Source: Defluviitaleaceae bacterium (lineage in GTDB: Bacteria; Bacillota; Clostridia; Lachnospirales; WRAX01). From it: a stretch of 64,000 bases of DNA. Shown here in pieces: positions 370-35,430 of this stretch (within the stretch, counting starts at the first letter, position 1; every line of letters starts with the position of its first letter). Under the pieces are notes generated by a model, which was not told where the DNA came from, ran no database searches, and worked only from the letters and a program-made list of their open reading frames with translations. The position numbers were made by a program, and so were the translations under genes. The stretch covers positions 1 to 64,000 of the forward strand of contig WRBJ01000006.1 of NCBI GenBank assembly GCA_009784615.1, written 5' to 3'.

Positions 370-2517
370 CTACGGTTTTATGCGGGTTAGGTTTATTAAG
401 CGCAGGTTTGTAGGGTTTGTTATGTCTAATGCTATCTGTGCCGTGGCGGGTTCGTGTGTATCTAGCATTGTGATGTTGGCTGTTATGGGATTATTTGACA
501 ATATACTTGCAACATCCTGCTGGGTTAATTTGTAATTATATCGTGCGGTTTCGCTTTTCCATATTGTAAACTTGCAACCGCTTTTCCATTTCGCACAATA
601 GTAAGATTTTGTGTTTTCTAAAACATCACTATTGCAATAAGGGCATTTGCCTAGTGAGCCATTGGTCGCTTTGCGTTTGCCTTTGGTCATTTTGCGGTCG
701 TCTTGTGGGAAGGTGATAGATGTGTTTGTATCGCTTTTTGTGGCATTATCAACAAGATAATATACAAATTTTTCAATACTTCCCATAAATCGTTCTGGGT
801 TCATTGCGCCGTCGTTTATGCGATGCAAGCCTTTTTCCCAACGTCCTGTGGTTTCTGCGGATGTTATCTCGGTTGGCAATATTTGTATTAAGGTTTTGCC
901 TTTGTCGGTAGGCTGTAATGCCTTGCCCTTGCGTATTATATAGCCCACGGCAAGCAAACGCTCTATAATAGCGGCTCTGGTAGCGGCTGTGCCTAGCCCG
1001 TTTTGTTTCATATGCGCCGCTATTTCTTCGTCATCTACTGCTTTTCCCGCATTTTCCATAGCGGACAACAGGGTTGCTTCGGTATAGGGTTTTGGAGGTT
1101 GTGTCTTTTTTGCGATACTTTTAATATCTGTCATTTGGACAGCATCGTTTTTGTGCAACATTGGCAGGTTTTCTTTATTTTCCTCGTTTTCTGTATTATA
1201 AAGCTCTTTCCAGCCCATTTGCACGATTACTATGCCTTTTGACACGAAATCTTCCCCTGCTACGGCTGTTATTGCCTCGGTAATATCTTCGATATAAGCG
1301 GGATAGAAGGCGGCTAAAAAGCGACGGACGATAAGGTCGTATATTTTTGCTTCGTCTGCGGATAGCCCTGTGCTTGCGGTTTTGTTTGTGGGGATTATTG
1401 CGTGGTGGTCGGTTACTTTGCCTGCGTCTATTATACGTTTGGTTATTGGCAGTTTTTCCAATGTTTGTAAATGAGTTGCGTATTGGGCATATGCGGGGTT
1501 ACGGGTTAAGCCCGTAATGACGGCATTTAGGTTTATGTCGGGGGAAAGATGGCGGCTGTCTGTCCTTGGGTATGTTATTAATTTGCGTTTTTCGTATAGG
1601 TCTTGGGCTATTTGCAGGGTTTTTGTAGCAGAATAGCCAAAGCGTCGGTTGGCTTCACGTTGCAGTTCTGCCAAGTCTTGCAGAAGTTGTGGCGGGGTGC
1701 TTTTTTTATTGGTTTCTATTGATGTTATTTTGGCTGGCTGGTTTTTTACTTTTTTAATGATTTCGTCTGCGATTTCGGCGGTTGGTATGCGAAAAGGGTG
1801 AGATTGTGGGTCTGTCCCACAATGCCGTGAGGAATAGTTGTCGTTTTGGGCGGCGAATGTGGCGTGAATTTCCCAATAGTTTGTTGGGGTGAAGTTGTCT
1901 ATTTCGGTTTGACGGGCGACAATCATCGCTAGGGTTGGGGTTTGCACACGACCTATGGAAAGATTTGCGTTGTGTCGTAACGAATAGGCACGGCTGGCGT
2001 TAATGCCCACCAGCCAGTCTGCGTGGCTACGGCATAGGGCAGAGTTGTATAGATTGTCAAAATCTGCGGCGGGTCGCATATTTTCAAGCCCAATGCGTAT
2101 AGCCTCGTCTGTCATTGACGAAATCCACAGGCGTTGTACGGGCTTTTTGCATTTTGCGTGATTGTATATGTATCGGAAAATAAGCTCGCCTTCACGTCCG
2201 CTATCCGTTGCGCATATTATATTACTAATTGTTGCATCTTTCATTAATCGGGTTAATATACGAAGCTGGGCGGCAGTCTTTTTTATAGGCTTTGTGCGGA
2301 TTTGCGCAGGGATAATGGGCAGTGATTGCACTGTCCATTTTTTTAATGCTGGGTCGTAGTCGTCTGGGTCGCAAAGGGTTAGCAAATGCCCTATTGCCCA
2401 CGATATTATATATTTGCCGCCCGATAATACACCGTCACCTTTGGTGTTTGCACCTACAACACGGGCTATATCACGTGCGACGGACGGTTTTTCGGCTATT
2501 ACTAATATTTTTGACAC
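370..2517 (-). CDS. topB: DNA topoisomerase III (type IA)
   Basis: MSKILVIAEKPSVARDIARV N-terminus, SIGRVQTPTLAMIV, LITYPRTDSRHLS active-site motif, C-terminal Zn-ribbon-like segment. Confidence 0.95.
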   Translation of the reverse strand: MSKILVIAEKPSVARDIARVVGANTKGDGVLSGGKYIISWAIGHLLTLCDPDDYDPALKKWTVQSLPIIPAQIRTKPIKKTAAQLRILTRLMKDATISNIICATDSGREGELIFRYIYNHAKCKKPVQRLWISSMTDEAIRIGLENMRPAADFDNLYNSALCRSHADWLVGINASRAYSLRHNANLSIGRVQTPTLAMIVARQTEIDNFTPTNYWEIHATFAAQNDNYSSRHCGTDPQSHPFRIPTAEIADEIIKKVKNQPAKITSIETNKKSTPPQLLQDLAELQREANRRFGYSATKTLQIAQDLYEKRKLITYPRTDSRHLSPDINLNAVITGLTRNPAYAQYATHLQTLEKLPITKRIIDAGKVTDHHAIIPTNKTASTGLSADEAKIYDLIVRRFLAAFYPAYIEDITEAITAVAGEDFVSKGIVIVQMGWKELYNTENEENKENLPMLHKNDAVQMTDIKSIAKKTQPPKPYTEATLLSAMENAGKAVDDEEIAAHMKQNGLGTAATRAAIIERLLAVGYIIRKGKALQPTDKGKTLIQILPTEITSAETTGRWEKGLHRINDGAMNPERFMGSIEKFVYYLVDNATKSDTNTSITFPQDDRKMTKGKRKATNGSLGKCPYCNSDVLENTKSYYCAKWKSGCKFTIWKSETARYNYKLTQQDVASILSNNPITANITMLDTHEPATAQIALDITNPTNLRLINLTRIKP
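1499..1517. repeat. Palindromic repeat element inside topB (TTACGGG-TTAAG-CCCGTAA)
   Basis: Perfect 7-bp stem; translated as VITGLTRNP in TopB. Confidence 0.7.
1803..1823. repeat. Palindromic repeat element inside topB (ATTGTGGG-TCTGT-CCCACAAT)
   Basis: Perfect 8-bp stem; translated as RHCGTDPQSH in TopB. Confidence 0.7.
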
Positions 2518-35140: not shown

Positions 35141-35228
35141 AATGTCATCTCCTGTGATATGTTTTTTGGTATTATAGCATAGGTTGTGGGTTGGGGTCAA
35201 GGGTTTTGGGTAACTTGATGTTGGGTGG

Positions 35229-35363
35229 CTGGATTGCTTCGGGGTTGGCTACCCTCGTTTTCGTAGGAGCGTCCCTCGCAATGACGGTAGCCCTTGGTGC
35301 TTTCGTCATTGCGAGGGCTACTAAGTGCTTAGGGCAATACGCATCAAGCCCGAAGCAATCTAG
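35229..35363. repeat. Dispersed MITE-like repeat, copy B, TIR CTGGATTGCTTCGGG / CCCGAAGCAATCTAG
   Basis: Terminal inverted repeat nearly perfect; shares internal blocks with 156-312. Confidence 0.85.
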
Positions 35364-35430
35364 TAAATAAAAGATGAGATTGTTTGTTAGTTAAAGGCGT
35401 GGTATAATGTAATGGTGGAGGTGTATACAT

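Follow-up and report, generated by a model that had tools for sequence, protein, structure and literature searches.

We consider it probable that the topB gene of this Defluviitaleaceae bacterium contains two translated CGTC-type REPs, and that they belong to a genus-wide landing, in frame, of CGTC and GTAG REPs in which native codons were overwritten or later exchanged. Until now, protein-coding palindromes have been regarded for the most part as a peculiarity of Rickettsia and Wolbachia. The features referred to below lie in the window, which is the whole stretch of 64,000 nucleotides that was analyzed.

370 to 2517, minus strand: topB, DNA topoisomerase III (type IA), 715 aa, GTG start, intact open reading frame.
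1798 to 1827, minus strand: site 1, CGTC-type REP (CGGCATTGTGGGACAGACCCACAATCTCAC) read as RHCGTDPQSH, codons 231-240, identified by palindrome pattern and genome copies.
1570 to 1572, minus strand: codon of Tyr316, part of the ITYPRTDSR motif and 17 codons ahead of site 2.
1495 to 1521, minus strand: site 2, CGTC-type REP (GTCATTACGGGCTTAACCCGTAACCCC) read as VITGLTRNP, codons 333-341, identified by palindrome pattern and genome copies.
155 to 315, no strand assigned: long CGTC-tagged repeat pair (CGTCATTGCGAGG...GAAGCAATC) with oppositely oriented members, some 55 bp downstream from the topB stop, identified by repeat copies.
35228 to 35367, no strand assigned: second long CGTC-tagged repeat pair of the window, intergenic, identified by repeat copies.

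The product of topB matches the Pfam families Topoisom_bac (8.8e-130) and Toprim, and structures of E. coli Topo III rank first in both fold and profile comparisons. The residues Y316, P317, R318, D320 and S321 of the catalytic motif, invariant in 27 homologues, are all present, and Tyr316 is what we take to be the catalytic tyrosine from established knowledge of type IA topoisomerases.

The two sites were described earlier as variants of one palindrome read in two different frames, and both parts of this description hold. The pattern CATTRYGGG-N5-CCCRYAAY matches both sites, and their codons (site 1, 1827-1798: CGG CAT TGT GGG ACA GAC CCA CAA TCT CAC; site 2, 1521-1495: GTC ATT ACG GGC TTA ACC CGT AAC CCC) are read in phases one base apart relative to the repeat, both within the intact open reading frame. 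When the consensus CGTCATTGCGGGCTTGACCCGCAATCTC is placed on the topB coding strand, two phases are free of stops, and these are exactly the two used; the third has a TGA. The sites form hairpins with stems of 7-8 bp and loops of 5 nt (-8.9 and -10.9 kcal/mol): site 1 has an 8-bp stem, and site 2 has seven of eight pairs, the first being A-C. The unpaired tag is an exact CGTC at site 2, complete at 1522, and CGGC, with one change, at site 1. The topB copies show the features of CGTC REPs, namely a stem of 8-9 bp with A-T pairs at positions 1-2, a loop of 4-5 nt, and an unpaired CGTC (variants TGTC or CCTC) at one end.

The genome carries several copies of the palindrome, both between genes and inside coding sequence; the preliminary description had proposed such a search. 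An exact search of the 1.58 Mb genome gave three sites, the two in topB and one intergenic copy with the plain consensus, and the same pattern at up to two mismatches gave 24 matches in the whole genome, compared with 1 for a reversed-pattern control; the R/Y widening of the pattern was chosen after the topB copies had been seen, and in relatives the consensus copies dominate. Since there are three exact sites and 24 matches against one in the control, the topB palindromes are not due to chance. Across 16 genomes of the family, the pattern gave 0 to 131 matches per genome, with controls of 0-2. The family is mostly intergenic: about 6 of the roughly 8 short CGTC REPs of the window's genome lie between genes, and the tag of the inspected intergenic copies is mostly TGTC or CGTC. 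Longer relatives (CGTCATTGCGRG and CGTCATTGCGAG, with a shared CGTCATTGCG end) occupy about 30 places in the genome, mostly as opposed pairs. The two-mismatch CGTC matches in the conserved genes L010, L016, L019, L020, L022 and L025 were judged to be ordinary coding sequence, as were the GGIAG-type motifs in L133-L135.

To our knowledge, no enzyme acts on CGTC-type REPs. The sole Y1 transposase found in the window's genome, which is 86.5% complete, is a 129-aa protein (L001, G000:C10:20126-20473); inverted palindromes, ACCGGTTAAAACCGGT and ACGGCT-AGAGCCGT, border its gene on either side and are unrelated to CGTC or GTAG REPs. Because the palindromes flanking its gene are different, it was rejected as the source of the topB repeats.

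The window protein was aligned with 29 relatives. A scan of genome contigs for nearer TopB relatives found solely the sister MAG contig WRBU01000109.1, from Defluviitaleaceae bacterium Lab288P1bin92, the nearest named relative, which is placed in Clostridia, Lachnospirales, and which we take from its isolate name to have a termite-gut source. We refer to the window's genome as G000 and to the same-genus sister genome, 68% complete, as G001. With two genomes of the genus compared, and their TopB proteins (L027 in G001) 68-69% identical, no event can be finely polarized.

Insertion had been expected at both sites, and the alignment did not bear this out. At site 2, the anchors are 30 aa apart, the same spacing as in the five nearest relatives of the family, so the repeat added no residues. 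Site 1 has gained 2 aa relative to L028-L030 for a 9-codon repeat, and the conserved strand end, GKWF in relatives, is gone from the window TopB. Relatives free of the REP have neither the residues nor the palindrome at these sites. Of the two outcomes that the preliminary description had named as refuting it, neither was seen, the palindrome being repeated in the genome as well.

At site 2, the sister protein reads VIGGLARN, and its DNA (GTCATTGGGGGATTGGCTCGCAAT) has a broken stem. Over 24 nt, the window and sister sequences each match the REP consensus at 20 positions and match one another at only 16, while four REP-free relatives match the consensus at 9-11. This star-like pattern, a comparison of sequences, suggests that a REP was present at site 2 in the ancestor of the genus and decayed in two directions. 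An improbable alternative is chance convergence, in which a native helix (V/I-I-A-x-L-A-N), similar to the REP peptide VIAGLTRN, drifted into a palindrome. Site 2 is length-neutral among relatives, the native residues and the REP peptide have V, I and L in common, and the sister peptide VIGGLARN would also fit such a drift. However, both genus members reach 20/24 to the REP consensus, whereas 20,000 draws of codons for native-like peptides averaged 10-11 and never exceeded 16 of 24, and, with the sister peptide held fixed, its codons match the REP consensus at P about 0.005.

At site 1, the sister TopB carries a different repeat. Its loop contains GACAACGTAGGGGCGGCTAATAGTCGCCCGCATTCC (DNVGAANSRPHS), an exact match to the GTAG-tagged palindrome at C109:3171-3195, with a gain of 5 aa, and the same TopB loop therefore holds a CGTC REP in the window species and a GTAG REP in its sister. 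By a rough hand estimate made post hoc, there is a chance of a few in 10,000 that any of the seven non-RAYT intragenic sites would lie within about 10 codons of one of the window sites. With a degenerate site-2 copy in the sister and an unrelated repeat, of GTAG type, in its site-1 loop, more has happened here than the insertion of one element twice. In another family member (L031, G003:C69:6155-6176), TopB ends near residue 579 and the C-terminal region is missing; the 3' end of this topB lies inside a consensus CGTC REP, which is followed by a dRS3-like palindrome (GATTCCCGCTTTCGCGGGAAT).

An AlphaFold model of TopB (mean pLDDT 86.6) was used to locate the sites in the fold. Site 1 comprises the end of strand 226-232 and the next loop, and site 2 covers helix 330-338; the loop-like placement proposed earlier does not apply to site 2.

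It is also conceivable, if quite unlikely, that the topB hairpins are kept for a role as nucleic acid (mRNA stability, translational pausing, or a DNA target of Topo III or gyrase), the peptide being a by-product. In its favor, each stem has a base pair that differs from the consensus yet still forms (G-C has become A-T at site 2, and C-G has become T-A at site 1). A long REP pair is also found immediately downstream from topB, and E. coli REPs are cited as gyrase targets (PMC3733652). Against such a role, the stem at site 2 is broken in the sister genome, where another repeat occupies site 1; hairpins are absent from both places in other relatives, and the same repeats occur in unrelated genes.

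The GTAG palindrome pattern gave 46 and 47 matches on the two strands of G001, compared with 2 and 1 in the controls. Among 43 GTAG sites surveyed (20 regions plus topB), 12 lie in frame in recognizable genes: one each in those for TopB, PheT, PyrC, MnmG, RsmF, a copper ATPase and a B12/radical SAM gene, and five in two RAYT (Y1_Tnp) genes. In-frame translated palindromes in conserved genes, the mark of Rickettsia palindromic elements (RPE), are present in the window TopB and in G001 genes. Net length changes were assessed against relatives or solved structures, with anchor-to-anchor lengths for TopB, PyrC, PheT and MnmG. For the GTAG REPs of 8-9 codons in G001, they range from about -2 to +5 aa: 0 in PyrC, +4 in MnmG, about -2 in RsmF, near zero in the copper ATPase, and, in PheT, 0 relative to the window's genome and +4 relative to genus g11.

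These lengths bear on how the repeats entered the genes. One reading, which we hold tentatively, is that REPs spread by overwriting a similar number of codons and not by insertion, with certain loops, such as TopB site 1 and the PheT linker, as sites of exchange at which one small repeat gives way to another, unrelated one. Another, which we find somewhat less likely than not, is clean insertion followed by compensating deletion, in which the REP adds codons and neighboring native loop residues are lost later. The changes of +4 in MnmG, +5 in the sister TopB and about +3 in RAYT resemble insertions that were compensated in part; the length of variable loops drifts in any case, and for Rickettsia palindromic elements genuine gains of tens of residues are reported (PMC3767692, PMC10969869). 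However, no aligned case has the full +8 to +9 aa of a fresh insertion, and GTAG copies that match the pattern exactly and look young stand at net 0 in PyrC and PheT. Survivors with near-zero length change are expected under overwriting and compensated insertion alike because selection would act on loop length.

In the window's genome, too, GTAG-like copies occur within genes, namely HemW-like, PrmA-like and flippase-like ones; for PrmA, the PDB match begins past the REP and gives no length information. A further candidate, L167, was rejected as an in-frame GTAG REP, since the repeat is probably upstream of the true start. A 475-aa open reading frame resembling a phage portal protein (L163, G000:C3:60223-60247) includes a GTAG-like REP (VGANIIRPF) close to its start and, farther along, a stretch that is CGTC-like (EGQARND).

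The PheT linker holds a GTAG REP in G001, a AAATTCAAAATTC-type repeat in G000, and TTATCGA- or GAATTACG-type repeats in G011, G013 and G015. This linker lies near residue 200 of PheT, and in species without a GTAG REP there it contains short tandem-type repeats of about 7 bases, with peptides such as KFKIQNSKLE and ELRITNYELE (L240-L246, pheT of G000, G013, G011, G015, G003, G012 and G014). At the PyrC hairpin that carries the GTAG REP in G001, pyrC of G011 (L212) has GCCCGAAATGACGG, which may be a CGTC REP that is reversed in orientation and has decayed. In Rickettsia, PheT is also among the targets, and orthologues may hold different repeat groups at one place; for such orthologous sites, the study of R. 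japonica did not decide between hot spots that receive different elements and a single element that has diverged (PMC3767692). The hot-spot view is favored by our data because the TopB loop has a CGTC REP in one species and a GTAG REP in its sister, and the PheT loop is likewise reused.

Both Y1_Tnp genes of G001 have GTAG repeats inside and flanking them, so that only the GTAG repeats are seen to be associated with RAYT. RAYTs of G001, G006 and G014 (L182, L183, L186, L187 and L189) contain GTAG REP-like peptides in frame at two shared loops; the best cases are in opposite orientations at the two loops, VGAGIARPH and GRAMHAPT, and the net change is about +3 aa. A search of solved structures with the G001 RAYT protein gave no match.

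The process that we infer from these data is as follows. REPs of the two unrelated superfamilies, CGTC and GTAG, would enter genes in frame where the protein is permissive, the REP DNA being copied into the gene perhaps through single-strand processing or template switching. GTAG copies would probably have moved with the help of RAYT, whose cleavage of the repeat is putative. A similar number of native codons may have been overwritten at landing or exchanged later, and selection would retain the in-frame REPs that preserve loop length and fold, so that TopB stays functional. In-frame events can be frequent because each REP strand is short and open in two of three frames. No new function is claimed for the REP-coded residues. 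The near-zero length change offers a testable alternative, in which selfish repeats supply protein sequence by replacement and not by insertion.

Several parts of this picture are already known, namely in-frame palindromes in Rickettsia and Wolbachia (PMC10969869, PMC3767692) and intragenic REPs in several phyla (PMC3733652). The open-access papers searched yielded no report of coding REPs in Bacillota. As far as that literature shows, three points are new: that the hosts are Bacillota, that one loop holds repeats of two superfamilies, and that the net change in length is near zero.

In comparison with known systems, the topB copies resemble the CGTC-tagged REPs of Di Nocera et al. 2013 (PMC3733652) in the CGTC-type tag, the 8-bp stem with terminal A-T pairs and the 5-nt loop, as well as in having intergenic and intragenic copies, with replication and repair genes among the hosts. 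That study described CGTC and GTAG REPs whose intragenic copies are often in DNA replication or repair genes, assigned Neisseria dRS3 and Rickettsia RPE-4 and RPE-6 to the CGTC superfamily, and found no dedicated transposase for it. Its CGTC hosts are Proteobacteria, Chlorobi, Bacteroidetes, Spirochaetes and Thermotogae, with Firmicutes unmentioned, whereas the present hosts belong to the Clostridia, and each topB copy is a single unit with a gain of 0 or 2 residues. The repeats of G001 are like GTAG REPs/REPINs in their GTAG tag and GC-rich stem, their many copies, and the RAYT-type (Y1_Tnp) genes in the same genomes; unlike them, many lie in frame in conserved genes, and REPs are found within the RAYT coding sequence. 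The likeness to RPE and to Wolbachia WPE is that palindromes are translated in frame in unrelated genes. The analogy with Rickettsia drawn in the preliminary description stands for the copies of both species, which lie between genes and in frame inside genes, and is not supported for clean loop insertion. RPE are 84-150 bp long and add tens of residues, whereas the units here are single, about 25-27 bp, with a net change of 0 to +5 aa, and one TopB loop is common to two unrelated superfamilies, unlike in RPE or WPE. The topB repeats work like RPE but are not classed as RPE; they are a Bacillota counterpart of Rickettsia palindromic elements, overwriting more than extending the protein by a presumed route of replacement.
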